NCBI GenBank assembly: GCA_013815325.1
Contig: JACDGM010000002.1
Location: forward strand, 1-64,000
Source: Chthoniobacterales bacterium
Lineage (GTDB): Bacteria > Verrucomicrobiota > Verrucomicrobiia > Chthoniobacterales > UBA10450
Length of the DNA: 64,000 bases
Direction: 5' to 3'
The position numbers were made by a program, and so were the translations under genes. This document shows, piece by piece, positions 1 through 62,673 of this stretch (within the stretch, counting starts at the first letter, position 1; each line of letters opens with the position of its first letter). The notes beneath the pieces were generated by a model, which ran no database searches, was not told where the DNA came from, and saw only the letters and a list, made by a program, of their open reading frames with translations.

Positions 1-3000
1 GCAGTTGTTTGCCCGGCGGCTTCGCGATGATGTCGATGCCGCTGTTAAGCGCATCGTTTTCGTCGAGCAGCGCGAGGTCGGCGCGCCCGCCGCCAAAGAG
101 CTCGGCGAACATTTCGCGAAAGTTGATCCGCACCTGCGCGAAGGTTTCGGCGAAGAGTTTTTCGGTCGTTTGATTGATACGGGCGATGACGTCGAGCAGC
201 TCGCGGCGCGAGTTCGTTAGGTCGTTGTTTTGGGTTTCAAGGAAAGTGTGGCGCTCTTCCAGTTCGTCGTATTCGTGCACGGCATCGAGATTCACTGGGC
301 CCATGTTGTCGAGCTGGCGGGTGAGGTCGGCGATGATTTCGATGAGCTGTTCTTCGTCCCCATCGGAGGCGAGGGCGTTTTCGTCTTCCGGTTTTTGGTT
401 GCGCTTTAGTTGCGCGCGTAGCGTCTTGTTGAAGGAATAACGATCGGGCGCGAAATCGCCCAGATCGATCTGGTAACGGCGCATCGCGTGCTCGACGATG
501 TTTTCGATTTTCAGCTGTACCTGCGTCTGGCGCACTTCCTCTTTGCTGCGGGCATCGTGCAGATCACTCAGTGATTTGCGGTCCGCGCGCAGTTCGCTTT
601 CGAGCGTGTTCACTTCCGCGAGGCGCGCGGCGCGAGTGGCGGTGATCTCGTTTACGGCTGCTTCCGCGACGGTCAGTTCGGCGCCGTCGGCGGCAATTGA
701 CTCTTCGGCGGCAGCCGTTTCGATCGCCTGTTGTTCGCGGCGCGATTGGTAGGCGGCGATGTCGGAGCGGCGGGTCGCGATCACTTCGGCGAGTTCCGCC
801 TGCCGGGCGGTCATCGGCTGGCGCTGGCTGCGCAGCCCCTCGTGACGCTGCCGTTCGGTTGCGACCGCGAGACGCAGTTCGTTCAACTGCTCGATCAACT
901 CCGTGTCGCGCAACCGCGCTGCTTCCGCAGCGGATTCCGTGGCGGTGCGTTGCTCGTGGTTAGTTTCGCAGGTTTCTCGGAAATCGGTCGCTTCGCTTTC
1001 GAGGTGGGCGATCCGCTCGGCCGAAGTCGCCAGTTGCTGATCGAGCGTCGTCTTTTCCCATTCGATGGCATCGGCTCGGCGATTAGTCTCGTGCAGTTCG
1101 CGTTCGCGCGCCGCAACTTCGAGCGCGGTGGCGGAATGTTCGGCGCGCGCCTGTTGCTGATGCCCGCGGATTTCTTCCAGATGCTCGGTTGCGGATTTGT
1201 GCGCGCGCTCGCCTGCCTCGCGGCGACTGCGCAGATTTTCGCGGGTCTCGAGGAAGCGGCGCAGCTCCGCGCCTAACAAAGATATCTGCGCTTTGCGTGC
1301 GAAGAGCGAGCTGCTCTCTTCGCTGACGCGTCCGCCGTAAATGACGCCCTGGGCGGAAATGAATTCGCCGGTGACGGTGGCGAAGGCGATCTCCGGCGCC
1401 TGCTTTTTCAACTCGCGCGCCTCCGCCAGGTCGTCGACAAAAACGATTCCGCCTAACAACTGCCTAACGAGCGCTTGCAGCTCGGGCGGCGCCTGCACCT
1501 TTTCTGTTGCCCAGCCGAGCGCGCCTTTCGGCAACGGGCGCTCTTCCATTGCGGTCGAGCGGAGCAGCTCTGGCGCGATCAGCGCGGTCTGGCCGAGTTT
1601 TTGATTCGTTAATTTCGAGATGATTTCGGCGGCGAGGGCATCGTCCTGAAGAACTATGGCGTGCAGGTTGCGCCCAAGCGCCGCTTCGATCGCGGGGATA
1701 AACTTTTCCTCGACTTCGATCAGTGAAGCGAACGCCCCGGCGAGCGCGGGAAGGAATCGTTCGGGGTCGCCCAGCCCCTTGAGCAGCGCCTGCGAACCTT
1801 GCGCGAGACCTTCGCCTTCGTCGTTGAGCTGCTGCAAAATTTCGAGGCGCGATTGCCGTTCCGCGACGGCGCGTTCGCCCACGAGGAGGTCGGCGTCGGC
1901 GTCACGCAACGCTTGCTGCTGGCTCGCGACTTCTTCTTCCGCGGCCGGAAGCTTCGCGGTCAATTCCTGGACGTTTTGGCTTTGCTCGGTGGCGGTGGCG
2001 CGAATGGCCTCGAGTCGTTCCGCCAATTGATTTCGCGCGGAGGCCGCCGCGCCTAACGACGCTTCCAGCTCTGCCAGACGCGGGGCGGTGGCGCTTCGCC
2101 GTGTCGTGATACCGGCGATTTCCGCCTCCAGATCGTCCAGCCGGTTTTCCGCTTTCGCGATCGAAAGTTCGAGAGTCTGAAGCGCTTGATCCTGCGCCTG
2201 GCGCTCGCGGCGAACTTCCCCAGCGCGTTCGATCGCTTCCGCCAGTTCGGTTTTCTTGGTGGCAAGGAGCCGATCCGTTTCTTTGAGGAGCGCGTCGGTA
2301 TCGTGGATCTCGCTTTCCTGCTGCGCGAGCTTCGCTTCGGCGGCCGTGATATCGCGCTCGTAACGCTCGATCAGCGCGCTCAATTCCTGCGCCCGCTCGT
2401 GATTGAAATCGATCCGGTTGCGATGCGACGCGATTTGGTTTTGCAGCCGCTGCACATCCGTTCGGGCCTCGTTGATTCGCGCGTCGACTTCTTCCAGCTT
2501 TGCGCGCTGCGCGGCGACGGCGTTTTCCTGCTCTTCGATCTCGCGCTCGGTCGTGCGTTGTTGCTCGTCGAAGCGGCCAGTCGCAGCGCGCGAGGTTTCC
2601 AATTCCGCGCCTAACGAATCGAGTTGGGCGCGGGAATGATGCGTATCGAGCACCTGCAAATCGCCCATCAATGCCTGATATCTTCTCGCTTTTCCGGCCT
2701 GGCGCTGGAGCGAGCCGATTTGGCGTTTTACTTCCTTGATGATGTCGCCGAGCCGAAGCAGGTTCGCTTCCGTCGCTTCGAGCTTGCGCAGAGCCTCGCG
2801 CTTTTGCCCTTTGTATTTCGTGATCCCGGCGGCTTCTTCGAAGACCGCGCGCCGATCTTCCGGACGGGAGCTGAGAATCTGGTCGATCCGGCCTTGCTCC
2901 ATAATCGAGTAGGCGCTGCGGCCGACGCCGGTGTCGGCGAAGAGGGCCTGGATGTCTTTAAGCCGGCAGACGGTTTTGTTGAGCAGATACTCCGAAAGCC

Positions 3001-3322
3001 CGTCGCGATAAACACGCCGCGAAACCCGCACCTCGTGCCAATCGACGCCGAGTTCCGTCGCGCAATCGGTAAACGTTAGGGAGACTTCCGCATAACCGAC
3101 CGGCTTGCGTGAGTCGGTGCCGTTGAAAATAACATCAGCCATCTCGCCGCCGCGGAGCGCCTTGGCCGATTGTTCGCCGAGGACCCAGCGGACGGCGTCG
3201 AGGACGTTCGATTTCCCGCAGCCGTTAGGTCCGACAATCGCAGTGACGCCTTCATGAAAATTGAAAACCGTTTTATCGGCGAAGGATTTGAAGCCAAAAA
3301 GTTCGAGCGATTGGAGGTGCAT
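1..3322 (-). CDS. smc: chromosome partition protein SMC (3' end outside window)
   Basis: Structural maintenance of chromosomes ATPase that binds and organises DNA with ScpAB. The reverse strand is open from an ATG at 3322 to the window edge, about 1107 codons; the track misses it because it has no stop inside the window. Translation begins MHLQSLELFGFKSFADKTV, with Walker A GPNGCGKSN at about residues 31-39 and then MADVIFNGTDSRKP. Next come a long coiled coil, a hinge around residues 540-670 (VTGEFISAQGVIYGG), a second coiled coil and the C-terminal head entry FREMFAELFGGGRADL. The C-terminal signature and Walker B lie beyond base 1, so roughly 100 residues are missing. The octamer CCTAACGA or a near variant recurs within the gene, including a CCTAACGG variant in the Walker A codons. 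Confidence 0.96.
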   Translation of the reverse strand, partial: MHLQSLELFGFKSFADKTVFNFHEGVTAIVGPNGCGKSNVLDAVRWVLGEQSAKALRGGEMADVIFNGTDSRKPVGYAEVSLTFTDCATELGVDWHEVRVSRRVYRDGLSEYLLNKTVCRLKDIQALFADTGVGRSAYSIMEQGRIDQILSSRPEDRRAVFEEAAGITKYKGQKREALRKLEATEANLLRLGDIIKEVKRQIGSLQRQAGKARRYQALMGDLQVLDTHHSRAQLDSLGAELETSRAATGRFDEQQRTTEREIEEQENAVAAQRAKLEEVDARINEARTDVQRLQNQIASHRNRIDFNHERAQELSALIERYERDITAAEAKLAQQESEIHDTDALLKETDRLLATKKTELAEAIERAGEVRRERQAQDQALQTLELSIAKAENRLDDLEAEIAGITTRRSATAPRLAELEASLGAAASARNQLAERLEAIRATATEQSQNVQELTAKLPAAEEEVASQQQALRDADADLLVGERAVAERQSRLEILQQLNDEGEGLAQGSQALLKGLGDPERFLPALAGAFASLIEVEEKFIPAIEAALGRNLHAIVLQDDALAAEIISKLTNQKLGQTALIAPELLRSTAMEERPLPKGALGWATEKVQAPPELQALVRQLLGGIVFVDDLAEARELKKQAPEIAFATVTGEFISAQGVIYGGRVSEESSSLFARKAQISLLGAELRRFLETRENLRSRREAGERAHKSATEHLEEIRGHQQQARAEHSATALEVAARERELHETNRRADAIEWEKTTLDQQLATSAERIAHLESEATDFRETCETNHEQRTATESAAEAARLRDTELIEQLNELRLAVATERQRHEGLRSQRQPMTARQAELAEVIATRRSDIAAYQSRREQQAIETAAAEESIAADGAELTVAEAAVNEITATRAARLAEVNTLESELRADRKSLSDLHDARSKEEVRQTQVQLKIENIVEHAMRRYQIDLGDFAPDRYSFNKTLRAQLKRNQKPEDENALASDGDEEQLIEIIADLTRQLDNMGPVNLDAVHEYDELEERHTFLETQNNDLTNSRRELLDVIARINQTTEKLFAETFAQVRINFREMFAELFGGGRADLALLDENDALNSGIDIIAKPPGKQL

Positions 3323-3441: not shown

Positions 3442-4764
3442 TCAGCTCCGCTGCTGCGGAACCGCCACTCTGAGGAGATACAACAAAGTGCCGACCAGGA
3501 ACACCGCGCCGGCGATCTTGAATTCGCGTGCGGTCGCCTGCGCCAGAATCCAGATGATGAGTACGATCGAGATCAGCGGAATGATGCGCGCGCCGCGGAA
3601 ATTGAATGGCGGCGCGTCGGTCTGCACGTCGCGGCGCATCAGGACGAAAGCCGCGGCGCAGCAGACAAGGTAAAGCAGGAGCGCGGCGACGTTCGCCATC
3701 ACGGCGAGCGATTCGAAAGTGGAGCTGAGCGAAAACAAAAACGCGAGCAAGGCGTAGATGATGATCGCGACGTCCGGCGTGCGGAACCGCGGATGCACAT
3801 GCGTGAGACTGCGCGGGAGAATCCCATCGCGCCCGAGCGCAAAGAGAATCCGCGGCGAGCTCAGAATGTCGCTCGCGATAAAGCCGAATCCGGAAATCGT
3901 CGCCCCGCCTAACAAGAGCAGGCGTCCGGCGTTCCCGAGGAAAGTTGAGGCCGCGGCGGCGAGCGGTGCGTTGGTCTCCTGCCCGAGGCGCGGGCCTAAC
4001 GAACCTTGCGCGACGAGTTGAATCAAAAGGTAAAGCATGGTCGTGATGGCGAGTGCGAGATAGATCGCGCGCGGAACGGTGCGAGCGGGATTTTTTACTT
4101 CGCCGCTCGGGATAAGCGCGACCTCGATGCCGAAAAAAGCGAAAAGCAAAAGCAGGACCGAATGGCCGAGCGCTCCAGTCCCGGGCCAGCCAGGCCAGGC
4201 GAGATTTGCCGGGTGAATGAAGAAAATCCCAACTGCGATCAGAATCAGCAATGGAATCAACTTCGCGACCGTTACGACTCCGACCGCGCCGGTGCCTTCG
4301 CGCACGCCGCGGACGTTGATCGCCGCGAGTCCCGCGTAAACGAGGAAGAGAATCGCGAAACGTCCACCCGTTCCGCCTAACGAGGGAAGGAACGCCGCCA
4401 CCGTGCCGGCGAAAAAATTCACGACTGCCGCGACGCTCAGAACGGCGGTGGTATAAAAGAAGAGGCCGGTGATAAAACCGACATAGCGGCCAAAGGCGAC
4501 CTCGGCATAAGCGTAAAGGCCGCCGGTGAGCGAGACGCGGCTTCCCGCGAGCGCGAAGCTGGTGACAAAGAACGCCATCGCAATCGCGCAGACCACGAAT
4601 GCAAGCGGCGCGGCGGCGCCGAGTTGTTGCGACATGTCGGCCGGAAGTTTGAAAATGCTCGCGCCAACGGTGGTGTTAACAATGTTCGCGGTGAGCCCGA
4701 GGACGCCAATGGCGCGGAGCAATTGCTCATCGACCCGTTGCGGTTTGGGAGGCAGGCTCGCCAC
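3442..4764 (-). CDS. APC-superfamily amino acid permease
   Basis: Predicted inner-membrane amino acid transporter of the APC superfamily. It is 440 residues long with about 12 hydrophobic segments. The family-typical first helix reads GLTANIVNTTVGASIFKLP (unwound TM1 with a GASIF motif), and a GGLYAYAEVAFGR stretch follows in TM2-3. Substrate cannot be told from sequence. The gene is single; upstream lie two direct copies of CCTAACGA (4821 and 4849) and then a REPIN-like repeat. The neighbouring ggt and M20 dipeptidase genes make amino acid or small-peptide uptake a reasonable but unproven role. Confidence 0.9.
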   Translation of the reverse strand: MASLPPKPQRVDEQLLRAIGVLGLTANIVNTTVGASIFKLPADMSQQLGAAAPLAFVVCAIAMAFFVTSFALAGSRVSLTGGLYAYAEVAFGRYVGFITGLFFYTTAVLSVAAVVNFFAGTVAAFLPSLGGTGGRFAILFLVYAGLAAINVRGVREGTGAVGVVTVAKLIPLLILIAVGIFFIHPANLAWPGWPGTGALGHSVLLLLFAFFGIEVALIPSGEVKNPARTVPRAIYLALAITTMLYLLIQLVAQGSLGPRLGQETNAPLAAAASTFLGNAGRLLLLGGATISGFGFIASDILSSPRILFALGRDGILPRSLTHVHPRFRTPDVAIIIYALLAFLFSLSSTFESLAVMANVAALLLYLVCCAAAFVLMRRDVQTDAPPFNFRGARIIPLISIVLIIWILAQATAREFKIAGAVFLVGTLLYLLRVAVPQQRS

Positions 4765-4873
4765 GGGCGCACCGTGCGTGAAGTCGCGCGGCGAGACAAG
4801 CGCGAAAGACGCGATGGGCCCCTAACGAGCGCGGAGACTACCGATTCGCCTAACGACGTGGCGGAAATCCTCC

Positions 4874-5037: not shown

Positions 5038-6774
5038 TCAGTAGCCCGCGGCCTGTCCGTCTTTGCGGCTTTCGCTCGCTCCGTCATAGACGCGCTCGCC
5101 GTCGTGCATCTCCACCTTTATAGCCTGGTAGCCGCCATAGCCGCCAACGTCGAAACGCATGTCGTGGCCTTTGTCCCGCAACGCCCGCACGGTCGCGTAG
5201 GGCACGCCGCTCTCGACCTCGACGTAGCCGCCGTTAGGCAAAAGCTTTTCGCCGGTGGGTTCGTTATCGCCTTCGTGTTGCCAGCGCGACGCGTCGCCCG
5301 CCTCCTGCACATTCATTCCGAAATCGATCAGGTTTGTCAGCACTTCGACGTGGCCTTGCGGCTGCATGTCGCCACCCATTACCCCAAACGCGAGCCACGG
5401 TTTTTTGTCCTTCATGACGAACCCGGGAATGATGGTGTGAAACGGCCGTTTGCCGGGCGTATAGACATTCGCGTGTCCCGGTTCCATCGAGAAAAGCTGG
5501 CCGCGATCCTGAAACATGAAGCCGAGTCCCGGCACGACGATGCCGCTGCCCATGCCGCGGAAATTGCTCTGGATCAGGCTCACCATGTTGCCTTCGTCAT
5601 CGGCTGTGCAGAGATAGATGGTGTCGCTCTGGCCTAACGAGGGATTGCCTGGCGCCACGCTCTTCGCGGCGTGATCGGGGTCGATGAGTTTGCGACGCTC
5701 CGCCGCGTAGCTTTTCGAGAGCAAGCCGGCGAGCGGGACCTTCGCGAAATCAGGGTCGGCGTAATATTTTGCGCGGTCCGCGAAGGCGAGCTTCTTCGCT
5801 TCGACCATGGTGTGGAGGGTTTCAGGCGAATTAAAACCCATGGTCTTGAGGTCGTAGCCTTCGAGGAGATTCAACATCTCCAGCGCGGCCAGGCCTTGCC
5901 CGTTAGGCGGAAGCTCGAAGACATCGTAGCCGCGGTAATTGGTCGAGACGGGATCGACCCAAGTTGAGGTGTGCTGCTCGAAATCGGCCTTCCGAAGGTA
6001 GCCGCCATTCGCCTGCATGAAGGCGTCGATCTTATCGGCGATCTCGCCTTTGTAATATGCATCGCGGCCCTTTTCACCGATCAGGCGCAAGCTATGCGCT
6101 AGCGCGGGGTTCTTGAAAATGTCGCCCTTCCCCGGTGCGCGGCCTTTGCCGTCGAGGGTGTAGGTCTCGAGATAAGCGCCCGGCAGACCTTTGAAAAGCG
6201 GCAGATTGCGGCTCCAATAATAGGAGATCAACTCCGTCACCGGGAAACCTTCCTCCGCGTAATGGATCGCCGGCGCGAGGTCGTCGCCTAACGACAGCTT
6301 GCCGAACTTTTTGTGCAACTCGGCCCAGGCATCGACGGTGCCGGGCACACTGATCGGCAGCATTCCCGTCGGCGGGATGAACTCGCGATGGAGCTTCGCC
6401 AGCTCGTTTTTCATCTGCTCGTAGCTGAGGCCGCGTGGCGAACGGCCGCTGCCGTTGAGTCCGTAAAGCTTGTGATCGCTGGCGCTGTAGACGATCGCAA
6501 AAAGATCGCCGCCGATGCCGTTCGAGATCGGTTCCATTAAGCCGAGGGTGGCGTTCGCCGCGATCGCGGCATCGACTGCGCTGCCCCCACGTTTCAAAAC
6601 GTCGAGCCCGACTTGCGTGGCCGCGGGAACGCTTGTGCAAACGATCCCGTGGCGCGCCAGAATCTCGGACCGCGTCGCCCAGGTCTTGCCGGTGATGCGG
6701 TCGATTTGGCCGTGAAGAGAGCCGGCCGCGCCTAACGAGGCCACGGCAAGGAGAAGCTGCGCGCGAACTTTCAT
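5038..6774 (-). CDS. ggt: gamma-glutamyltransferase (gamma-glutamyltranspeptidase)
   Basis: Ntn-hydrolase that cleaves or transfers the gamma-glutamyl group of glutathione and related peptides, normally in the periplasm. The 578-residue precursor begins with a signal peptide (MKVRAQLLLAVASLGAAGSLHG). The autoproteolysis and nucleophile site fits Thr385 in GQSDTIYLCT, followed by the substrate-loop region FRGMGSGIVVPGLGF. The N-terminal large-subunit motif NGIGGDLFAIVY and the C-terminal GVMGGDMQPQGHVEVLTN are typical of the family. It is transcribed divergently from the M20 peptidase, which could process the released dipeptides. Confidence 0.95.
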   Translation of the reverse strand: MKVRAQLLLAVASLGAAGSLHGQIDRITGKTWATRSEILARHGIVCTSVPAATQVGLDVLKRGGSAVDAAIAANATLGLMEPISNGIGGDLFAIVYSASDHKLYGLNGSGRSPRGLSYEQMKNELAKLHREFIPPTGMLPISVPGTVDAWAELHKKFGKLSLGDDLAPAIHYAEEGFPVTELISYYWSRNLPLFKGLPGAYLETYTLDGKGRAPGKGDIFKNPALAHSLRLIGEKGRDAYYKGEIADKIDAFMQANGGYLRKADFEQHTSTWVDPVSTNYRGYDVFELPPNGQGLAALEMLNLLEGYDLKTMGFNSPETLHTMVEAKKLAFADRAKYYADPDFAKVPLAGLLSKSYAAERRKLIDPDHAAKSVAPGNPSLGQSDTIYLCTADDEGNMVSLIQSNFRGMGSGIVVPGLGFMFQDRGQLFSMEPGHANVYTPGKRPFHTIIPGFVMKDKKPWLAFGVMGGDMQPQGHVEVLTNLIDFGMNVQEAGDASRWQHEGDNEPTGEKLLPNGGYVEVESGVPYATVRALRDKGHDMRFDVGGYGGYQAIKVEMHDGERVYDGASESRKDGQAAGY

Positions 6775-6844: not shown

Positions 6845-8179
6845 ATGCGCCAGGATCATCTCGACGATTTCTTCACTTTTCTTCGCTTCCCCAGCATCTC
6901 GACCGACGACGCCTATAGCGAAAAGCTGGGCGAATGCGCCCATTGGCTGGTGGAAAAGCTCACTCGCATCGGGCTCGAGGCCCAGCTAGTTTCCACCCCC
7001 GGGCATCCGGTCGTTTGGGCGAAAAACAAGCATCAACCCGGCCGCAAGACGGTTATGCTTTACGGGCATTATGACGTGCAACCACCCGATCCGCTCGATC
7101 TCTGGGACTCGCCGCCCTTCGATCCCGTTCTAAAGAACGGCTTCGTCTTCGCGCGCGGCGCGACCGACAACAAAGGCCAGGTCCTCGCGCACATTCTCGG
7201 GATCGAAGAAACGATGGCGGAAAAGGGCGACCTGCCCGTTAACCTGCATCTCATCGTCGAAGGCGAAGAGGAAATTGGCAGCGGCAATCTTCCCGGATTC
7301 CTGAAGGAGAATCGCGACTCGTTAGGCTGTGACGTGGCGGTCGTCTCCGACACGGGAATGATCGCGCGCGGCGTTCCGACGCTCAGCTACGGGCTCCGCG
7401 GGGTGACCGCGCTCGAGATCAAAATCAGCGGCGCGAAGATGGATTTGCACTCCGGCGTCTTCGGCGGAGCGGTCGCGAATCCGGTCACGGCGCTGGCGCA
7501 ATTGCTCGCGAGTTTGCACGACAAAAACGGCCGCGTCGCGATCGATGATTTCTACGACAAAGTGAAGCCGCTTGAAGAATGGGAACGCGAGGCGTGGCGT
7601 AAATTGCCGATCGACGGTGACAAAGAAATCCTCGCGGAAACCGGCGCCCCGGGGCTCTTTGGCGAGCAAGGTTTCAGCACGCTCGAGCGACTCTGGGCGC
7701 GACCGACCGCGGAGATCAACGGCATCGGCGGCGGCTATCAAGGGAAGGGGACAAAGACCGTGATCGCGAGTCACGCCATGGCCAAGATCACGTTTCGCCT
7801 CGTGCCGAATCAAGACGGCGATGAAATCCTGAAGCTGGCGCACAAGCATTTGGAAAAACATCTGCCGCCTGGCGTCCGCATGGAGATTACCGATGGGCAC
7901 AGCGGTCCCTGGTATTTGACCGATCCGCATTCGAGCTTTGGCGAAGCGGCGCAGCACGCGCTCAAAGAGGCTTTCGGCAAGGCGCCGGCGCTCATCCGCG
8001 AGGGCGGGAGCATCCCGATCGTCTCGCAATTCCGCGACATTCTTGGGGTCGAAACTCTGCTCCTCGGTCTGGCGCTGCCCGATTGCCGGGCGCATTCGCC
8101 TAACGAGAACTTCCCGGTCGAAAACCTGGAAGCGGGGGTCAAGATGAACAAGGCGATCCTTCAAGGACTCGCTTCCTGA
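6845..8179 (+). CDS. M20-family dipeptidase / peptidase
   Basis: Zinc metallopeptidase of the M20 (PepV/CNDP dipeptidase) type, cytosolic by lack of a signal peptide. Visible metal-site motifs are MLYGHYDVQP, the ARGATDNKGQ aspartate, VEGEEEIGSGN with the catalytic Glu pair, VVSDTG and the late His in ALPDCRAHSPNENFPVEN. The track starts at 6812, but MRQDHLDDFFTFLRFPSIS from the ATG at 6845 is the conserved N-terminus and is preferred. The motif octamer reads as DSLGCD and SPNEN in two different orientations inside the protein. The next gene starts 4 bp after the stop, so the two are probably co-transcribed. Confidence 0.93.
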   Translation: MRQDHLDDFFTFLRFPSISTDDAYSEKLGECAHWLVEKLTRIGLEAQLVSTPGHPVVWAKNKHQPGRKTVMLYGHYDVQPPDPLDLWDSPPFDPVLKNGFVFARGATDNKGQVLAHILGIEETMAEKGDLPVNLHLIVEGEEEIGSGNLPGFLKENRDSLGCDVAVVSDTGMIARGVPTLSYGLRGVTALEIKISGAKMDLHSGVFGGAVANPVTALAQLLASLHDKNGRVAIDDFYDKVKPLEEWEREAWRKLPIDGDKEILAETGAPGLFGEQGFSTLERLWARPTAEINGIGGGYQGKGTKTVIASHAMAKITFRLVPNQDGDEILKLAHKHLEKHLPPGVRMEITDGHSGPWYLTDPHSSFGEAAQHALKEAFGKAPALIREGGSIPIVSQFRDILGVETLLLGLALPDCRAHSPNENFPVENLEAGVKMNKAILQGLAS

Positions 8180-48923: not shown

Positions 48924-49018
48924 AACACCGGCGCGAGCAACCCCATCGCGAGGATGGCGACCCGGGAAGCTCTCGTGGAGAAACAAAGGAGCATGAAAAC
49001 GAGCAATCGGGATGATCG

Positions 49019-53400: not shown

Positions 53401-53909
53401 CGACCATCGCAACGTGGTGCCGCCCGAAGCGGTAGCAGCCGATGCAGTTTCAGCAGGACTAGATCTCGCGCCCTTCGCGAGCATCTTGACTCTGTCAGCC
53501 CTCCCAAATGCTGCCCGTAGGCACCGGTTCTGAAACAGAACAGGCGATGGCCCGCGCCGATAGCGTTCCGCCACCGGCGCGAAATCATTATTCGAGCTAT
53601 TTTGCCGGGCATGATCGCCCGCGCCGCTGCCCGATGTGAAAGGCTGGGTTAGGTCGGATCGGCGACGAGGGGGAAGATACTTTAAGACAGCTTTTTGTTC
53701 GCGTCGACTGGATTTGTTCTGACTGTTGCTCTGAAACCGCCGGCTGGATCACTCAAGTAAGTCTTCCAGTCGCTGCCGCCGAAGCGCCCGTATTCGCGTA
53801 AGCGAGCCTTTGGGCCCTTACCACCAAGATCTTTCAACCGATATTACTTTTACCCCCTGCAGGGTAGCGACTGGGGTTGGAGTCGGCGTGGAAAAGTGAG
53901 GGCGAAATT
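53401..53909. other. gap without a confident gene
   Basis: About 500 bp. On the minus strand a stretch of about 47 codons (ending near 53682) reads protein-like text such as KARLREYGRFGGSDWKTYLSDPAGGF, without a recognised family or ATG. It may be gene debris. No RNA gene seen. Confidence 0.4.
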
Positions 53910-55649
53910 TCAGTTTCTTGGAACGCGAAACACGTTCGGCTGCAATTCCGTTGTGATCGGGGTATTGCGTCGGATGATGTTCGCGAGCGTTGTCGCCTCG
54001 AGAGATTGTACCGTTGCCGCATCGAGATACGATTGGTACCAGAACCGGTCGCCGTCGCGAAGACGTTCGAATTGATCTTTGAGTATGGTGAAGATTGTTT
54101 CGCCAACCATCTTGCCGGTCATGTGCTTTTCCGCCAGCGCACCCACCCAAATATCGATGTCGTCCGGCGTAGCGTAGGCGGAAGCCAGTTTGGCCTGCAA
54201 GCTCGTATCGCGCGTTATTTGTCTAAAGCTCGTAATGGGCGCCAGACCATAAGCGATACGGACCTGATTATAGCGGGGCAGCCCGTGATCGCGCCCGCGT
54301 TGCATGTTGAGTGCTGCCAAGTCAAAGCCGCTAGCAGGACCGAAAAGGAAATTTCGCATCTCATCTACGATAAAGGCGTCGACCTGCTGTGCCGGCTGCT
54401 TGGCCAATCCACGCAGATAGGGCTCAATGCCAGGTCCCGTGATAGTGGACGGGCTGAAATGCGTATCGTGCAGATTAAGGTCGCCAATGGATACGCCATT
54501 CGCATCAAATCGGAGCAGTTGTTCCGATAGCATGGTATGCCCCACCCGGAATGCCGCCGTCGAAAACTCGTTTGCGATACCGGGATCAACATCTGGATTG
54601 TATCCAGCGTAGGGAGTGAGCGCATTCGCGCCGAGCAGAAGAGGAATAAAGTCGCGATACGTGATGACCTCAATTTCCGCGCCAACCATCGCGCGCGCCC
54701 GGAAGTAAATCCCATCATCATCCAGAGTCGGGTCGGCATTTTTGAAGCTATCGGCCCAGAAATTGTGTTCGCGCATGAACAGCGTTTGAAGAACCGTAAG
54801 CCCCGTGGTTTCATTAGCCCGGACGTCGCCTGTCAGGAAAAAGGCGGACGTGGTGTCCGGCTGGTTGTCGAAGCCGTTTAAATTGAAAGGCAGCAGGTTG
54901 TTGGCGCTGCTTTTTAATTTGCCGCTGCCATCGAGCATTCGTAGCTCCTGCGCGCGTGCTTCGTCCGACCCGTAAACCTGAGACGCGTCGATATAGGCCG
55001 TGTTTACGTTAACCTGTTGCCGCACGTTATTCACAAGCACGAAAAGTGACCGCTTAAAGCCAAGGCTCTTGGTGCCGGTGCCGGTGGGATCGAAGACGGG
55101 ATCGCCTAGCGGCACAGGGATGACAAAGTTTTGGGCGGGAGTGGCCACAGGCGTAAGACTCATGTCGTGGTCGAGGAATTGGCCCCACTGCCACAGATAA
55201 TCGGAAGCGTTTTTCGTGTTGGGAATCGGTGCTGCCTGTGCGACCACAAGATTGCTGATCTCGCGCGGGCTTTTCTGACCCACGCCACCTGGCGTGCCAA
55301 CTCCGTCAGCGTAACCGACCGGGCTAATGCGCAAAAGAGGGATATCAGCGGCGCCGCGCAGCAGGTCGGTCTCGTTGTTGCCCGACCCATCGATCGAACG
55401 AAATTCACTCGGAAATACTGCCGGCCCGTTAAAAAACGGGAAGAGCGTAGATCGTTCTGAATGCCTCAACTCAGATAGCCCCATTGCCGTATGAAAGGCG
55501 TCAAAGGCTGCGGCTGACTGGGGGGTTACCCCGAGGTTGTCGTCGGCTCGTAATGGAGGGTGGAAGGGTTCCTGCGCAGCGACCGGGGCGGAGGCACAAA
55601 CACAGAAGAGGAGGGAACAAGTGAGATGTATTTTGATGGGGATTTTCAT
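53910..55649 (-). CDS. secreted animal-type heme peroxidase
   Basis: 579 residues of the peroxidase-cyclooxygenase (An_peroxidase) superfamily with signal peptide (LTCSLLFCVCASAPVAAQ). Distal site WQWGQFLDHDMSLTP (His), catalytic Arg in FMREHNFWADSF, proximal His in AAFRVGHTMLSEQLLRF; also IDASQVYGSDEARAQELR and LNMQRGRDHGLPRYN. Bacterial relatives oxidise halides or phenolics outside the cell. Motif-free and lower in GC than neighbours, so probably acquired. Confidence 0.93.
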   Translation of the reverse strand: MKIPIKIHLTCSLLFCVCASAPVAAQEPFHPPLRADDNLGVTPQSAAAFDAFHTAMGLSELRHSERSTLFPFFNGPAVFPSEFRSIDGSGNNETDLLRGAADIPLLRISPVGYADGVGTPGGVGQKSPREISNLVVAQAAPIPNTKNASDYLWQWGQFLDHDMSLTPVATPAQNFVIPVPLGDPVFDPTGTGTKSLGFKRSLFVLVNNVRQQVNVNTAYIDASQVYGSDEARAQELRMLDGSGKLKSSANNLLPFNLNGFDNQPDTTSAFFLTGDVRANETTGLTVLQTLFMREHNFWADSFKNADPTLDDDGIYFRARAMVGAEIEVITYRDFIPLLLGANALTPYAGYNPDVDPGIANEFSTAAFRVGHTMLSEQLLRFDANGVSIGDLNLHDTHFSPSTITGPGIEPYLRGLAKQPAQQVDAFIVDEMRNFLFGPASGFDLAALNMQRGRDHGLPRYNQVRIAYGLAPITSFRQITRDTSLQAKLASAYATPDDIDIWVGALAEKHMTGKMVGETIFTILKDQFERLRDGDRFWYQSYLDAATVQSLEATTLANIIRRNTPITTELQPNVFRVPRN

Positions 55650-55807
55650 GGGGTTTTCAGTTGAGCGTCTCTGATCGCGAACAAGCTGGTCAATAAGATT
55701 CTAGCCCTGTCGATTCATGAGGATTTTCCCTAGAGACGGGCTGTCCAATTTCGGTCGAATTTGGCGCGCCATCTGCTGCCATTAACAGCGGTCTTACAAA
55801 ATCGCAG

Positions 55808-56815
55808 ATGAAACAACCGCCTCTAACAACACAGATTCTCCGAACTTTGATCGTAGCCGCTCTCCTAAGCGTGACGTCGCTTGCCTTAGCAAAGCCTTTC
55901 CCAGCAGGCATTATCCGACTCTTCAGCACAGGTGTGGCGAAGCCGGCTAACAGCCCGTCGTGGTTCAACGCCAACCTGGACGGCATGCGCCTCAGACCGG
56001 CCTGGCGCGATGTGCAGACGGGACCCGAAACTTATGACTGGAGTGCGATTGACACGATCCTGGGTTTGGGCGCCCAGTACGGCAAGACGATCGGGTTGTC
56101 GGTTGGGGCTGGAGTGAATTCTCCGCAATGGTTGTACGATGCTGGCGCGATCAAATATAGCTTGCAGGACCGCTCCGATCTCTCCATGCCGATCCCGTGG
56201 GACCCTACTTTTCAAACGAACTGGCTCGCGTTCATTCGCACAATGGGTGCCCGCTACGATGGGAACCCAGCCCTCGGGTATGTTGTGATTTCTGGACTAG
56301 GACAAAACGTTGAGACGTATCTCTCCAAAACTGTCGCGGACGACGCTGCGCTGACTGCGATGGGCGGAACGACTGCTTGGGTGGCCGCGGCCGAGGAAAT
56401 TATCTCCACGTACGCGGAGGCATTCCCGACCACACCATTCTTTATCACCGCCGCACGACCATTTACCCCTGTCGAGGCAATATCAGCTTTGCAGCAGGTG
56501 ATCGATTGGGGAGTAGCTACTTATCCAGGGAGATTTGGGATAATGAATGCAACATTGAACGCACACTCCTCGACAGGTTACTATCCGAATTTGGCTCTTT
56601 ATACCTATAGAGGTACTCAGCCAGTGGGGCTCCAAATGCTGTGCTCGTCTATCTCGGACCCCGTTCGGCTTGGTGGCACACTGAATCTAGCTCTACTGCA
56701 GGGTGTAGGATTGGGCGCCGAGTTTGTTGAGGTGTACCAAAACGACGCTGATTCACCAGGCAACCAGACTGTTCTGGCGGGTAATGGGGCTGCGCTGGAG
56801 GCAAATCTCCCTTAG
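55808..56815 (+). CDS. secreted TIM-barrel (glycoside hydrolase-like) protein
   Basis: 335 residues with signal peptide (ILRTLIVAALLSVTSLALAKPF). The beginning GMRLRPAWRDVQTGPETYDWSAIDTILGLGAQYGKTIGLSVGAG resembles the first strands of GH42/GH5-like barrels (R..W...E...G.YDW...D). No clear pair of catalytic Glu residues can be assigned, so enzymatic activity is open. Divergent from the heme peroxidase. Confidence 0.7.
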   Translation: MKQPPLTTQILRTLIVAALLSVTSLALAKPFPAGIIRLFSTGVAKPANSPSWFNANLDGMRLRPAWRDVQTGPETYDWSAIDTILGLGAQYGKTIGLSVGAGVNSPQWLYDAGAIKYSLQDRSDLSMPIPWDPTFQTNWLAFIRTMGARYDGNPALGYVVISGLGQNVETYLSKTVADDAALTAMGGTTAWVAAAEEIISTYAEAFPTTPFFITAARPFTPVEAISALQQVIDWGVATYPGRFGIMNATLNAHSSTGYYPNLALYTYRGTQPVGLQMLCSSISDPVRLGGTLNLALLQGVGLGAEFVEVYQNDADSPGNQTVLAGNGAALEANLP

Positions 56816-57099
56816 TGAGCGCCTTTTGCTCGTTAGTCGTATTGTTGACGGCTGGTCGAACTGCTGGAGAGCGCACCCTGACCGCTAGCGGTGGGAAGAG
56901 AGGGAGACTGGAGGCAAGAGCCTTCGCGTCTTGGCCCACTCATCCTTGATGCGTTTCTGCGGCTCGATCCCAGCCGACCGCTTGCGCCGACACTGTGTGA
57001 GCGTTGTTGCCCATACTCCAACGCGCCTCTTGAGCAATTTCGCCAGAACACTTACGGCGCAGGCCCGCGGTGACGAGCTTGTTAAGGTCCCGGCGGCCA
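56816..57099. other. gap without a gene
   Basis: 284 bp between the barrel protein and the anti-sigma gene. Only short shadow ORFs. Contains a near-motif TCGTTAGT. Confidence 0.4.
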
Positions 57100-57852
57100 T
57101 CAGGAGCTGCTAAGGTATTTCTCTAGCTTTGCGCGATTGCCCTCGACCGTCATCAGATAGGCTTGGTCACCTTCCACCCAGGTAGCAGTCATCCACTCTC
57201 CGACGGCCTGGTAGCGCAGAGCTTTGTCACTCTCGCGCAAGTGCGATAAAGCCGCGCGACGGATGACAAAAAGGTGGATGAGCTCGCCCTGTTCGCGTCC
57301 GAAACAAATCAGCGTCACGTCCTGGCCACGAAATCGCAAAGTGCGACAACCGAGCGGATGCTGCATCTGTTGGAGCTTCTGCGGAAGGTCCAGGCGCGAG
57401 GGGGCGCCAGCCTTTTTAAGAAAGGCAGTAATGCGCGAAAGTTGCGGCGTCTCCATCTCGAGCACGGGATCAATCCTGATGAAGCTCACCATCTCATCGC
57501 GATAATCTCCGAGGGATACGGCCGGTTGGAAGGGGCCCTGCCATGAGCTGAAGTAAACTGTCAGGACGACGATGGCGGCCGCGACGAGTGTGAGTTTACG
57601 AGTCCATCGTGCAGAGGAGGGAATCACCGGCCGCGGCAGATTGAGCAGGCGCGCCTTGAGACCGGCCGGCGCCGGCGCGCTCTGGAGTTTTAGCCCGATG
57701 ACTCGATCTAACTCATCTTCTTCGACTGCGCCTGGCGCGAAAGATGGTTCCGTTTCACTTAGTTTCCCGGCCCCCGCGGGATGCGCGTCGTGCACGCCCG
57801 AGTCACCGGGGCGATAGATTCTTAAGGTTGAGTAGTTAGCTCCCTTATCCAT
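57100..57852 (-). CDS. putative anti-sigma factor, single-pass membrane protein
   Basis: 250 residues. A cytosolic N-terminal part (EEDELDRVIGLKLQSAPAPAGLKARLLNLPRP), one helix (KLTLVAAAIVVLTVYFSSW) and a periplasmic domain (VLEMETPQLSRITAFLKKAGAPSRLDLPQKLQQMQHPLGCRTLRFRGQDVTLICFGREQGELIHLFVI) match the common anti-sigma layout with DUF3379/RsgI-type ends; no zinc HxxxCxxC motif. It overlaps the ECF sigma gene by 8 bp, the main reason for the call. Confidence 0.7.
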   Translation of the reverse strand: MDKGANYSTLRIYRPGDSGVHDAHPAGAGKLSETEPSFAPGAVEEDELDRVIGLKLQSAPAPAGLKARLLNLPRPVIPSSARWTRKLTLVAAAIVVLTVYFSSWQGPFQPAVSLGDYRDEMVSFIRIDPVLEMETPQLSRITAFLKKAGAPSRLDLPQKLQQMQHPLGCRTLRFRGQDVTLICFGREQGELIHLFVIRRAALSHLRESDKALRYQAVGEWMTATWVEGDQAYLMTVEGNRAKLEKYLSSS

Positions 57853-58375
57853 GACTTTTACTGATTTTGGGAAGGTCCTCGACAGCGTTGATCTTAATAA
57901 GACGCGCGCGTAACTCCGCCCGCCCTCGATGGATCCGGGACATCACCGTGCCGATGGGGATTCCCAAGATCACGGCGATCTCACGATACGAATGTTGCTT
58001 TAGGTAAAACAGAGTGACCGGAGCACGGTAATGATCAGCCAGGGCATGCAATGCCTCTTGCACGGTGCTGGCATCGAGGGCATCCGCGGCGGAGGATGAG
58101 ACGTGCGCTGGGGCGACGAAGAGCGAGTCTGCTTCCACCTCGACAAAACGGGCAGCCTCCCGCTTCATCGAGAGAAATTTGCGATATAGAGTGGTGAAGA
58201 GCCAGGTCTTCACCTTCAACGGATCGCGTAACTGATGGCCTTTTGACGCCCAAGTATAGAACGTGTGCTGCGTGAGATCCGCTGCTTCGGATGGCTGCCG
58301 ACTTAACGACAAGCCGAAGCGATAAAGCGGCATGTAAAATTCCGTAACCAACGTTTCGAAATCAATCTCGGCCAC
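57845..58375 (-). CDS. ECF RNA polymerase sigma factor
   Basis: 176 residues of the sigma-70 ECF group. Region 2: FYMPLYRFGLSLSRQPSEAADLTQHTFYTWASKGHQLRDPLKVKTWLFTTLYRKFLSMKR. Region 4: ALADHYRAPVTLFYLKQHSYREIAVILGIPIGTVMSRIHRGRAELRARL. It is downstream of the DUF4331 and lactonase-type genes on the same strand and probably controls this secreted-protein set together with the anti-sigma factor. Confidence 0.93.
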   Translation of the reverse strand: MAEIDFETLVTEFYMPLYRFGLSLSRQPSEAADLTQHTFYTWASKGHQLRDPLKVKTWLFTTLYRKFLSMKREAARFVEVEADSLFVAPAHVSSSAADALDASTVQEALHALADHYRAPVTLFYLKQHSYREIAVILGIPIGTVMSRIHRGRAELRARLIKINAVEDLPKISKSHG

Positions 58376-58448
58376 AACCCATCACTACAAAACTGACGGA
58401 CCCGAAGCAAGCAAAAAGTCCGACCAGGAGAAAGAACTGAACAGAACC

Positions 58449-59675
58449 CTAGTAGGCGGCGAGACCCGAGGCGCCATCGGCGACAGGAAGAGCCTTCCCA
58501 ACACCAAAGATGCCGAGGGAGATCAGGCTTCCGTCCGGTTCGACCCGGAAAGCGGCCACGCCGCCGGTTCCGCGAAGAAGGTTATAGAGATACCTACTAT
58601 GCGTGCTAAAAGCCAGGTCCGTCGGCTGGCTGTCTATTCCGGAAAAGGCCGCAGCTCCTCTTATGAGCGTGACGCTTCCATTAGCGTCGAGCTGATAGCT
58701 GGAAATCGTGCCGCTGGCGAAGTTTGCCGTAAAAGCATACTTCTGATCGTCCGTGATCACGATCCAGCAACCATCTTCCTGCCCATTTTTCTCTGATCCG
58801 GTGATGACAGAGAGCGCGCCACTCGGTTGATCCAAGTTGTAGGAAGAAACTCCGGCGTTGTTCGGGATTGGCAGCCCGGATTCGACCACTAACAGACGAC
58901 CATCGTTGCGGAATGCTTCTGAGAAAGGTCGCCGGCCGAACGACGGATTTTGGATAGGATTGCTAACCAGTCCATCCGAGCTGACTTTAAAGACATCAAG
59001 GATGCTGCCCACTTTCCCTGTGACCACGATGGTCTGGCCATCCGGACTGAATTTTACATCGCCAGGGACGGCGATCGGCGAGCTTAGCGCCTTGAACGAG
59101 TCTGGGATCGCCCTAAGCGTGCCGTCGGCCCGAACTGTGAATCCGGTGATCCCGTTGCCAGCGACTGAACCATCAAGCACATAGGCCAGGTCTCCCGAGA
59201 GAGCTATGCTTAGTGGTTGATCTCCGGCGTAAACGCGTTGAAGCAAAGTCAACCTGTCCGCATTGACGGCGAAAACAGTCACGTTATCGCTGCCGGGATT
59301 ACAGGCATAGAGGAAGCGATGATCCGTACTAAGGGTCAAGCCATCCTGCGTATCGAAATCTACTCCGATACCACTGCCTCCCGTCGAGTAACGGTTCGTC
59401 TGCCTAAGAGTGCCATCGGCCTCCCGTCTGAAGGCGACCACTTCGTTGTTCCGTGCTCTGTTTGTCATCGCAAAAACCGCTCCTCCGCCATTGGTATTCC
59501 CGTTTGCGCCTGCCGAATCGGGCGCCTGAGCCTGAGTGTCTTGAGTCATACTGGCAATCGCAAGAAGGATAGCCATGGTCACACGACACAAATTTTTATA
59601 AGAGGAGAGAATATCTTCCTGTGTTTTTTCTTTCTTTGAATTTGTTTTCAGTTGGTTCATGCCGGTGCGAAGCAA
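58449..59675 (-). CDS. secreted lactonase-type seven-bladed beta-propeller
   Basis: 408 residues, an internal signal helix (VTMAILLAIASMTQDTQAQ) and repeated propeller strands of the 6-phosphogluconolactonase/muconate-cyclase family: GLTLSTDHRFLYACNPGSDNVTVFAVN, DVKFSPDGQTIVVTGKVGSILDVFKV, VITDDQKYAFTANFASGTISSYQLD. Substrate unknown. The start could be the Met within LCRVTMAILL, giving a tighter signal peptide. Lies between DUF4331 and ECF sigma genes. Confidence 0.82.
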   Translation of the reverse strand: MLRTGMNQLKTNSKKEKTQEDILSSYKNLCRVTMAILLAIASMTQDTQAQAPDSAGANGNTNGGGAVFAMTNRARNNEVVAFRREADGTLRQTNRYSTGGSGIGVDFDTQDGLTLSTDHRFLYACNPGSDNVTVFAVNADRLTLLQRVYAGDQPLSIALSGDLAYVLDGSVAGNGITGFTVRADGTLRAIPDSFKALSSPIAVPGDVKFSPDGQTIVVTGKVGSILDVFKVSSDGLVSNPIQNPSFGRRPFSEAFRNDGRLLVVESGLPIPNNAGVSSYNLDQPSGALSVITGSEKNGQEDGCWIVITDDQKYAFTANFASGTISSYQLDANGSVTLIRGAAAFSGIDSQPTDLAFSTHSRYLYNLLRGTGGVAAFRVEPDGSLISLGIFGVGKALPVADGASGLAAY

Positions 59676-59830
59676 AGAGGGGCATCTTTATTCCAGGAAA
59701 CTCGCGTCTCGCGGATGTAACAGTTTTCCCGCGGAAATCTCGAAGCGTTCTTCTGCAAAAAGAAAATCCGCGCCGCGGGCTATACCCAGCGACGCAGAAT
59801 TCCTCGTCTAGTTTTCGCGGTGTGTAACGT

Positions 59831-61093
59831 TTACTGCCGCGTGTGATCGTCCGGTTCGTGGCCCGGAGGGAAGGGCTGCGTCGGATCGTGAACGAACGGA
59901 AAGACGTTGCGGAAGCGTACTTCGTTTGCATCAACATAGTCAGTCGTTGGCACATCGTTGTGGATAAGGGTGAAGGTCGCGTCGACAACATCATCTACCA
60001 GCCTGCGGCCGCCCAGATTGCCAAAGCCGCCCCCGGGATTGGTCCCGCCCTGCGGTCCGGAATTCGGCACATTCAGGTCGAGGCGAAGGATGTCGCCCTT
60101 AACTTGGACCATGTTTAGAATTTGGGTTACATGGGCCGGGTCGGTTCCGAAGTTTTGCAGGTCAACGATCAAGTCGCCGCGGAACACTCCACGCGCGTCA
60201 GCCTGCGTCGTAGCGCCATTGTATTCGTTTTTGCGCGGCGCGGGAATGAGTACGTTATTAACGAGCGGATTACCCTGCCGATCGACGTTCACAAACCCAC
60301 CTTGACCGGTGTATGCACCGTCTTCGATCTTCTGATTGGTGCGCCGCTGGGTGACCGCGTTGATTCCAATCACACTGGTATTCGCCCCGCGCAGGAAACT
60401 CGCTGGAATGCTCACCACGGTAGCCATGGTGTTGAAGCCGGCATAGGTATCCCGTCCGCGGCGGAAGCCGAGAAGGAAGAAATCGGGATGGCCGGGATTC
60501 ATCAAGGACGATGCGACCAGATTATTCGCGCCGGTGTCGTCGAGAAAGAAGGGATCATCGGAGGCACCGCCAAAGAACTTCGCGCCGGTGTTGGGATCGG
60601 TAGTGACCACCGGATTTGGTGGCGGAACCGGCCGGGGCACCTGGGTCGCGATGGTAGTCGGCCCAGTGAAGCCAAGTATCACCTGCTTGTTCAAATCCGT
60701 CAGCTTGATGGTTGCCGTCTGGTTGGTGAGACGGCCCAGCCCCGGAGAGTAAGTCACATCGACGAAGAGGTCCGGTCTGGCGTCTCCTGTATTTTCAATT
60801 TCAAAACGGTAGCGAATGTTGGAATCGAAGATCACCATCCCGAAATGTTCGCCCGAGACAATAAAGCCCTGCGTGCTCAGGACGAGAATGACTTGCGAGT
60901 TGTCGTTAGGATCGAGGAAGGCCCACAGATCGGCAATATCAGCGCCGCGGTCCTGTGCGATCGTGGGTGAATCGATGTGATCGGAGGCCTGCAGCCGCGC
61001 GGGCCCAGAGAGCGCGAGCGCGAGGAAGGCGCAAGCGCCGAGAAGATTGGGATATTTAGACCGCGAGGTGCGAATTACATTTTCATGTTGCAT
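59831..61093 (-). CDS. DUF4331-family exported protein
   Basis: 420 residues with signal peptide (LGACAFLALALSGPARLQAS) followed by the family start DHIDSPTIAQDRGADIADLWAFLDPNDNSQVILVLS. Further blocks: RYRFEIENTGDARPDLFVDVTYSPG, FFGGASDDPFFLDDTGAN, FNTMATVVSIPASFL, RRLVDDVVDATFTLIHNDVPTTDYVDANEVRFRNVFPFVHDP. Function unknown; in other soil bacteria these genes sit with ECF sigma factors and peroxidases. First gene of the putative operon ending in the anti-sigma gene. Confidence 0.88.
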   Translation of the reverse strand: MQHENVIRTSRSKYPNLLGACAFLALALSGPARLQASDHIDSPTIAQDRGADIADLWAFLDPNDNSQVILVLSTQGFIVSGEHFGMVIFDSNIRYRFEIENTGDARPDLFVDVTYSPGLGRLTNQTATIKLTDLNKQVILGFTGPTTIATQVPRPVPPPNPVVTTDPNTGAKFFGGASDDPFFLDDTGANNLVASSLMNPGHPDFFLLGFRRGRDTYAGFNTMATVVSIPASFLRGANTSVIGINAVTQRRTNQKIEDGAYTGQGGFVNVDRQGNPLVNNVLIPAPRKNEYNGATTQADARGVFRGDLIVDLQNFGTDPAHVTQILNMVQVKGDILRLDLNVPNSGPQGGTNPGGGFGNLGGRRLVDDVVDATFTLIHNDVPTTDYVDANEVRFRNVFPFVHDPTQPFPPGHEPDDHTRQ

Positions 61094-61480: not shown

Positions 61481-61785
61481 AGAAGGCCGTTCTCTATGCG
61501 GTGGATGGAGTGGCATCGAACGAGATCCGGCGGTCGGTATTAATTCAGGCGAACGAGCGCACGTTTACCTGCATCGGGATGGGATACCTGCAGTGTGATT
61601 CCCAGCCTAACGACAGCTCGGAGGATAACTTTCCTCTTTGCGGTCCCGGCGGTCGGGTGTAGCGCGGTGTCTCTGACGCGCGAAGATGAAATGCAGGCCC
61701 TGCGTGCGAGCACGCGCATTTGCCCGGCGCCGATGGCATATTTCCTCCGCCTCACCGGCGGCTACGCCTAACGCGTTCCTCTGCC

Positions 61786-62673
61786 TCAGTACGGATTCGC
61801 GGCCATTCCGCGCGACGCCCGCACTTCGATTTGTCCCTCGCTCACACGGACCTCAAAGCAGGGCTGCGCATAGGTAGCAGGCCCGGCGAGAATGCTGCCG
61901 TCCCCGATCGCAAACGTCGAGCCATGCCACGGACAAGTCACCGCCTGCCCATCGAACTCGCCTTCGGAGAGAGGCCCACCCAGATGGGAGCATTTTTCCG
62001 CCATGGCAAAAATCCGGCGGCCGCGCCTAACGAGAAATAGAGGAACACCGTCGGCCTCCGCCTTGACCATTTTGTTATCGGGCAGCTCTGACTCTTTCAT
62101 CACCGGCACGAATCTTTCCGGCAGTGCCTCCGGCGCGTGATTGACGCCGATCCGCTCATTAAAAACCAGATGCCCGCCCAGGTACGCCCCCACCATGGAG
62201 AGAGTATAGCCGGCAAAGCCTGTCGTTAGGCCGGCACGCCGGCAGCCGTTCCGCCGCTGCCACCAAGAGCCGAGATAACAGGCGGTCGCGGCGATGTTTG
62301 TGATGGCGTGGAGCGCGCCCACGCGGCGCGGTTTATCAGAGGTGTGATTCCAATCATTGAGACCGGTGAACGCCGCCCCCGCCGCCCCGATCAAGCCGAT
62401 TCCGACCGCCACGTCGGCGCCGCGGGCAAGGCTTTTGTCGCCCGTGGAAAGCTCGTAAAGATCGAATGCCGCCGCTGCTGTCCACGCGCCCAGCGGCACG
62501 TCGGTGATGACAGGATGTAACGGATGCCCAAGCCAGGTGCCGTGGAGAAAATTCCGCACCTTCTGGCCCAGCGGAACATCCTTGAGAAAGAGAACATCGG
62601 CGACCGCGCCAAGCACTCTCTCCACCGGGCCGAGCCAATTCTGCCGACTGACTAAATCTCCGAGCTTATCCAT
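61786..62673 (-). CDS. DUF2231 membrane domain fused to Rieske [2Fe-2S] domain
   Basis: 295 residues. The N-terminal membrane part of about four helices reads LHGTWLGHPLHPVITDVPLGAWTAAAAFDLYELSTG (DUF2231). The C-terminal ferredoxin-type Rieske domain carries the ligands CSHLGGPLSEGEFDGQAVTCPWHGSTF (CxH and CxxH). Probably a membrane electron-transfer protein. The start is ATG 62673; the track's extension is rejected because MDKLGDLVSRQ is the natural N-terminus. Confidence 0.88.
   Translation of the reverse strand: MDKLGDLVSRQNWLGPVERVLGAVADVLFLKDVPLGQKVRNFLHGTWLGHPLHPVITDVPLGAWTAAAAFDLYELSTGDKSLARGADVAVGIGLIGAAGAAFTGLNDWNHTSDKPRRVGALHAITNIAATACYLGSWWQRRNGCRRAGLTTGFAGYTLSMVGAYLGGHLVFNERIGVNHAPEALPERFVPVMKESELPDNKMVKAEADGVPLFLVRRGRRIFAMAEKCSHLGGPLSEGEFDGQAVTCPWHGSTFAIGDGSILAGPATYAQPCFEVRVSEGQIEVRASRGMAANPY

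Follow-up and report, generated by a model that had tools for sequence, protein, structure and literature searches.

Discrimination of self DNA by means of a short word is listed, in a 2025 paper, for two proteobacterial families only, the Neisseriaceae and the Pasteurellaceae (PMC12616744). The former carry the DNA uptake sequence (DUS) GCCGTCTGAA and its dialects, with ComP as the receptor, and the latter the uptake signal sequence (USS) AAGTGCGGT or ACAAGCGGT, for which ComN/PpdA is the proposed receptor. Here, we describe a word of comparable abundance in a 64,000-nucleotide stretch of DNA from a Chthoniobacterales bacterium of the phylum Verrucomicrobiota (assembly GCA_013815325.1, contig JACDGM010000002.1, positions 1 to 64,000; hereafter the window). 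The word, an octamer CCTAACGA with the 9-mer core GCCTAACGA, is referred to as motif A, and we argue that GCCTAACGA is probably a self-specifying DNA uptake sequence of one Chthoniobacterales family. The first-pass annotation of the window knew of no published dialect with this sequence. Our searches of the literature, which were confined to open-access papers, turned up no uptake sequence for Verrucomicrobia, and where CCTAACGA appeared in papers, it did so by chance within some other sequence.

An abundant octamer with a binding-type profile

The window contains exactly 70 exact matches to CCTAACGA (40 on the plus and 30 on the minus strand, spanning positions 214-62230), which bears out the earlier count of about 70 copies, or roughly one per kilobase; dinucleotide-preserving shuffles of the window (n = 100) contained 0.99 copies on average and never more than 5. 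No other 8-mer of the window is as over-represented under a second-order Markov model (z = 71), and GCCTAACGA is the top 9-mer, with 48 copies observed versus 0.37 expected. The GC content of the window is 59.5%, which corrects the value of about 62% given in the first-pass annotation. The genome to which the window belongs (G000, a metagenome-assembled genome of 4.15 Mb in 209 contigs, 94% complete) holds 1811 + 1619 = 3430 copies of CCTAACGA, 21 times the 85 + 77 = 162 copies of the reversed word that served as control. Whole-genome counts, here and below, are pattern searches, and statistics are based on 409 kb of G000 and on 160-460 kb of the related genomes G003, G004 and G014. A look-up with TopA assigns the window to the Chthoniobacterales, and the three nearest named metagenome-assembled genomes carry the same word, with 15 (L009, LS_ISSM_2_bin.146), 16 (L010, palsa_1392) and 34 copies (L031, MGR_bin418) per 22-23 kb, and since these are separate records, an artefact of a single assembly is excluded.

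Alignment of the flanks shows a G at position -1 in 69-84% of copies. Further out, there are pyrimidines at -3 and -4 in genomes of genus g1 (weaker in G014) and a weak preference for T or A one base past the end of the motif, with no information beyond ~5 bp on the 5' and ~2 bp on the 3' side. GCCTAACGA is not palindromic, its reverse complement being TCGTTAGGC. Its strongly over-represented single-base variants fall mainly at position 1 (C, A), position 2 (A), position 8 (A) and position 9 (G, T), while most changes inside CTAAC are no more frequent than expected or rarer, leaving the inner core near-invariant. The neighbour words CCTAACAA and CCTAACGG are truly enriched, as the first-pass annotation had noted for degenerate neighbours in general. 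Words with one mismatch to GCCTAACGA total 2.4-3.3 times the expected number and words with two mismatches 0.7-0.8 times; a halo that decreases with mismatch load is also found around the H. influenzae and gonococcal uptake sequences (PMC1939737). This variant profile is of the binding type.

Placement of the copies

On the plus strand, motif A lies at 1463-1470, 2052-2059, 2610-2617, 3995-4002, 4376-4383, 4821-4828, 4849-4856, 5633-5640, 6287-6294, 6731-6738, 8099-8106, 8599-8606, 9935-9942, 10191-10198, 12410-12417, 24839-24846, 25968-25975, 28663-28670, 28929-28936, 31361-31368, 32312-32319, 33357-33364, 35247-35254, 40671-40678, 41200-41207, 43805-43812, 44183-44190, 44526-44533, 44885-44892, 45241-45248, 46159-46166, 46278-46285, 47227-47234, 47493-47500, 48281-48288, 52539-52546, 53396-53403, 61606-61613 and 62026-62033. 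Minus-strand copies occupy 214-221, 7319-7326, 8255-8262, 9270-9277, 9585-9592, 11230-11237, 25555-25562, 26888-26895, 27812-27819, 28903-28910, 30408-30415, 30536-30543, 32977-32984, 36748-36755, 38239-38246, 39720-39727, 41497-41504, 42251-42258, 46070-46077, 48079-48086, 49016-49023, 60903-60910 and 62223-62230, as well as 19193-19200 and 19292-19299 within dprA; the copies in topA are described further below. As an abundant, non-palindromic octamer, motif A might be taken for a polar motif of the type of Chi or the FtsK-orienting polar sequences (KOPS), which guides RecBCD/AddAB or FtsK. Its strand ratios in contiguous DNA are balanced (150:143 in 340 kb, 88:84 and 54:64 in 160 kb each, 40:30 in the 64 kb of the window), and no correlation was seen between its orientation and the GC skew of contigs (rho 0.15, P 0.22), from which replichore polarity was judged. 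Both results contradict such a guiding role, which we regard as very unlikely.

In the 409 kb of G000, the density of motif A is 0.97 per kb in coding and 1.17 per kb in non-coding DNA, with genes called in a simple manner from length and GC-frame. Genic copies occur in sense and antisense orientation and in all four stop-free frames, and the same holds for G003, G004 and G014; the other two of the six possible frames have no copies within genes because motif A would place a stop codon in frame. The earlier statement that copies lie on both strands and in intergenic DNA is thus confirmed, and the statement that they use every reading frame applies to four frames and fails for two. Depending on the frame, the encoded peptides read PN[ED], LT, SLG or VR. 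We found no point in favour of tracing the copies to a bias in mutation or codon usage, to a protein motif or to dispersed repeats. Use of both senses and four frames with different peptides, a non-coding density as high as that of genes and the uninformative flanks speak against this group of explanations, and we consider the whole of it highly improbable.

The copies also keep a distance from each other. With expected gaps between neighbours controlled for local density in 5-kb blocks, gaps below 100 bp number 23 versus 43 expected in G000, 14 versus 24 in G003 and 8 versus 31 in G014, where gaps below 50 bp are absent versus 16 expected. Self-avoidance below ~200-300 bp is significant in these three genomes, with a weaker trend of this kind in G004. 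In H. influenzae, two USS within 100 bp give no increase in binding (PMC7811141), which suggests that close pairs would gain nothing. In G000, G004 and G014, adjacent copies show no preference for inverted orientation; in G003, pairs that face each other are modestly over-represented below 200 bp (14 of 36).

At the other end of the scale, motif-free stretches of at least 5 kb are in excess in G000 (10 versus 2.8 expected), G003 (6 versus 0.8) and G004 (6 versus 3.0), with no excess in G014, and the long ones mostly fall below the GC content of their genome. The window holds one of 7.5 kb at 53404-60902 (GC 0.559 versus 0.595 in the genome sample), with genes for a haem peroxidase, a sigma-70-like factor, a lactonase-like protein and a DUF4331 protein. 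Another, of 5.5 kb at 19300-24838, includes part of dprA, ssb and the putative genes rpsF, pth, rplY and prs, which were assigned by position and sequence.

These features bear on the possibility that motif A is an iterated word that is maintained because it serves in DNA modification, repair or chromosome structure, like the cyanobacterial highly iterated palindrome 1 (HIP1, GCGATCGC). HIP1, too, is a very frequent, clade-restricted octamer and is tied to orphan methyltransferases (PMC4390886), and the case for motif A as an uptake word comes from its genomic footprint. Unlike motif A, HIP1 is palindromic. A core that hardly varies between tolerant edges, and copies that avoid lying close together, are expected of an uptake sequence and not specifically of a modification site, and motif-free stretches with deviating GC content fit a word gained via exchange. 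A HIP1-like role is thus unlikely, though it is the alternative that we take most seriously.

Origin of the copies by point substitution

Alignments of the window with its relatives indicate how the copies come about. Motif A is kept in 23 of 43 site comparisons (which are not mutually independent), versus 16-20% for any 8-mer. At five minus-strand sites in topA, the window reads CTA ACG, where relatives often have CTC or CTG followed by ACN. Specifically, many orthologues have the synonymous CTC ACN at 18019-18026, close relatives have CTC/CTG ACG at 17146-17153, and at 16837-16844, where the copy is also found in L031, orthologues mostly have the synonymous CTC/CTG ACN. The copy at 16045-16052 is likewise shared with L031, with a single-base difference (CCTGACGA) in L009 and L010, and the fifth site lies at 15802-15809. 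A plus-strand copy in the same gene, at 16154-16161, is kept in all four sequences compared (window, L009, L010 and L031), and topA of G014 has its motif A sites at other positions than the window's. Motif A copies accumulate by point substitution, often synonymous, and not by insertion of an element.

Motif A also resembles the recombination sites of integrons. The attC core (RYYYAAC / GTTRRRY) matches the first 7 bases of motif A, and often the first 9 in arrays of this order, so that GCCTAAC copies might be gene-cassette recombination sites. The attC sites of the order begin with GCCTAACGAG, as seen in arrays of G026, a genome of another family, and integron integrases exceed the family cut-off in 19 of 29 relatives, G000 among them. 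Unlike attC sites, the genome-wide copies have no paired arm, hairpin or cassette spacing: an inverted GTTAGGH partner lies 40-150 bp downstream of 0 of the 70 window copies versus 10 of 12 sites in a G026 array, and the 110 bp that follow a window copy fold no more stably than random sequence (-34.7 versus -35.3 kcal/mol; -53.3 for the array). Moreover, motif A occurs inside conserved genes such as topA, and very few attC-like sites adjoin the integrases of motif-rich genomes. We give next to no credence to the idea that the copies are attC cores.

In G026 itself, the cassette arrays lie at L127:6047-9732, L129:5993-8421 and L130:25-1133. Their attC sites mostly start with GCCTAACGAG and end with TTGGTTAGGC, the 5' end being identical to the first 9 bases of motif A. 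We had considered these word clusters as imported uptake-sequence DNA and rejected this, as they are integron cassette arrays. Nor was there support for an adaptation of attC sites in motif-rich genomes to the full word at both ends, since these sites have the same 3' core as those of G026, TGGTTAG.

Distribution among relatives and a second motif

Within the window's family (f1), the octamer reaches 1795-5493 copies per genome in genus g1, 2672 in g2 and 2254 in g11, the motif-A-rich genera, and mostly 50-770 in the others; some low-count members (e.g., G016 of g13 and some genomes of g4 and g5) are near their reversed-word control. Other families of the order have 6-38 copies per genome. A survey of 384 genomes of the class shows strong enrichment of the 9-mer in f1 alone: other families of the class mostly have 0-20 copies, below their own controls, and other families of the order 0-27, which also argues against the group of explanations by bias, protein motif or repeat element.

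Beyond the family, we noticed a milder enrichment of GCCTAACGA in genus g100 of family f35 (61-212 copies; G206, G211, G224, G348 and G455) and in some genera of family f15 (G330, G343 and G451; 39-212 copies with the f35 genomes included). Either integron arrays or a further lineage with an uptake word could account for this.

When k-mers were counted de novo in 20-kb samples of other f1 genera, a second word emerged, AAGATCGACAW (motif B), which is strict over 10 bases. Its enrichment in 157 genomes of the order is limited to f1, with 4514 copies in G014, 932 in G023, 671 in G016 and 668 in G073, and with 11-55 copies per genome in g1, g2, g3 and g7. Besides g11, the genus of G014, it marks g5, g6, g9, g12, g13 and g14. 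In a tree of ComEC, all motif-B genomes fall within one clade, supported by a Shimodaira-Hasegawa-like approximate likelihood ratio test (SH-aLRT) value of 100, which does not include the motif-A-rich g1 and g2.

G014 holds both motifs at high copy, a situation reminiscent of Simonsiella muelleri, which carries two Neisseriaceae dialects in one genome (PMC3630211). Pairs of like copies, whether A-A or B-B, are under-represented there at distances below ~200 bp, while A-B pairs within 200 bp show a slight attraction (305 versus 261 expected), suggesting that the two motifs behave as separate systems. Motif B pairs exactly 15 bp apart are in excess. On contig C4 of this genome, a phage- or transposon-like island of lower GC content (~54-74 kb; L132:13900-20000 and L133:1-14700) encodes an integrase, a DNA-transposition protein, a tape-measure-like protein and a superinfection-immunity protein. 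Motif B occurs there 3 times versus ~33 expected, and motif A ~14 times in 20 kb, which is near its normal density. Ancillary dialects have been used to trace the donors of islands in Neisseriaceae (PMC7371117); the C4 island resembles those cases and, as a single island, is suggestive of a comparable history. The same island also encodes a protein with an ABC-3C C-terminal domain and a DUF2326 protein, which are possible defence genes.

Some other repeated words deserve mention. The 9-mers ACGTCCAAC and ACGTTGGAC of G022 were dismissed as a further dialect, since they come from one sampled stretch only and overlap each other, as in a local repeat; the stretch L086 (G022:C17:30001-50000) contains a local repeat of ACGTTGGACGTT-like units. 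The window has 5 copies of CATGCGCTACCC, and in the G000 sample the AGGGACCTC and AGTTGAGAG families exceed the Markov model; all three are probably short repeat elements. An Rfam search of the window gave no matches. In L029 (Opitutaceae UBA6669), 10.9 kb contain four copies of GCCTAACG (0.1 expected) and none of CCTAACGA.

Competence and pilus genes

The core machinery for DNA uptake is present in G000. Its ComEC (773 aa) has Competence, DUF4131 and metallo-beta-lactamase domains, and ComEC is found in 35 of 37 relatives. PilT exceeds the TIGR01420 cut-off at two loci, and there are PilB/GspE-type ATPases, a T2SSF protein, the pseudopilin set of a type II secretion system (T2SS), a secretin and 11 pilin-type N-termini. 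In the window itself, the first-pass annotation had pointed to dprA and ssb, and Pfam searches confirm both on the minus strand: dprA, encoding the DNA-processing protein that acts downstream of DNA uptake, at 18624-19724 (PF02481, E 7e-77; TIGR00732 over cut-off) and ssb at 20500-20979 (PF00436, E 3e-35).

A tandem duplication of type IV pilin genes lies at L169:7224-8498 (contig C117 of G000), with products of 135 aa that are 94% identical. We considered this pilin as a specific receptor candidate and abandoned it, since it has homologues in most f1 genomes, recurs in tandem across the family and is also present outside it. Other pilins are a GspH/FimT-like one on contig C36 and those of C155, C66, C35 and C93; none was singled out in its place. 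The HHH_3 matches of G000 were likewise rejected as ComEA because, by sequence, the proteins resemble radical-SAM proteins; in other members of the genus, HHH_3 matches are 173-307 aa long.

Discussion

Tolerant edges, avoidance of close pairs, the synonymous construction of sites in topA, restriction to a family and the existence of a second motif are all as an uptake sequence predicts, and the excess of motif-free stretches may be so as well. The copy number genome-wide is far above expectation, no strand or replichore polarity is seen in contigs of 64-340 kb, and most of the expected competence and pilus genes are in place, ComEA being the part that fell short; this supports the interpretation as a candidate uptake sequence offered by the first-pass annotation, which is the best-supported reading of the data.

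Several observations weigh against it. A ComEA-type HHH_3 protein was found only below cut-off in G000, and the HHH_3 matches over cut-off in G001, G003, G004 and G014 may be GspK; the sole secretin inspected in G000 matches GspD best and stays below the curated cut-off. The motif is not tracked by ComEC and pilus genes, which are found across the whole order. The lack of mutual avoidance between motifs A and B means that they do not behave as interchangeable tags of one receptor, and the C4 island of G014, by keeping motif A, calls for an extra step, namely origin from a motif-A donor. Finally, we infer from genomes the receptor, the bias in uptake, the competence of these bacteria and the role of motif B as an uptake word.

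If motif A is an uptake sequence, duplex DNA carrying GCCTAACGA, with its inner core CTAAC and pyrimidine-leaning 5' flank, would be bound by a receptor on the cell surface that is probably one of the minor type IV pilins. Pilus retraction driven by PilT would then draw the DNA through a secretin into the periplasm, and ComEC would move a single strand into the cell for recombination by DprA and RecA. Word-bearing DNA would be imported and recombined more often, such that point mutation and biased copying raise the word to roughly one copy per kb, and copies become spaced out as soon as a fragment carries one. A shift of receptor specificity within the family may have given rise to motif B in one sub-clade.

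It is tempting to speculate further that DNA self-recognition evolved here independently of the Proteobacteria, with two unrelated words read by two separate receptors, one word replacing the other within the family, and that GCCTAACGA was perhaps taken from the ends of integron attC sites, leaving cassettes pre-tagged. The notion of two receptors comes from the avoidance among A-A and among B-B copies, which A-B pairs do not show; the scenario as a whole is a long shot. If the uptake reading is correct, these bacteria would represent a third, independent lineage from another phylum, implying that sequence-specific uptake evolves repeatedly, and would offer a new system for studying why self-uptake evolves and how receptor and word coevolve. 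Uncultured soil Chthoniobacterales would then be naturally transformable and exchange DNA mainly among relatives, and GCCTAACGA would be a practical tag to try in transforming them and a marker for imported islands.

Taken together, motif A is best compared with the two proteobacterial systems. Like DUS, it occurs about once per kb (400-1100 bp for DUS; PMC7371117) and is a family-restricted, non-palindromic word (9-12-mers in DUS) with a short invariant core, which is CTG in DUS; the Neisseriaceae have several dialects, two of them together in S. muelleri, to which motifs A and B in G014 may correspond, and islands low in the resident dialect, which the C4 island may parallel. Unlike DUS, motif A belongs to another phylum and is an unrelated word with the core CTAAC, no ComP homologue was identified, motifs A and B have no obvious common core, and three of the four genomes sampled show no excess of inverted motif A pairs. 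The word and the phylum are equally unrelated to those of USS; motif A prefers pyrimidines at -3 to -4 on its 5' side, and USS flanks are AT-rich. Motif A nevertheless shares with USS the format of a 9-mer with a strict inner core and tolerant edges, a decreasing mismatch halo, a relatively even spread and a density of ~1000 per Mb (PMC7811141, PMC1939737, PMC12616744).

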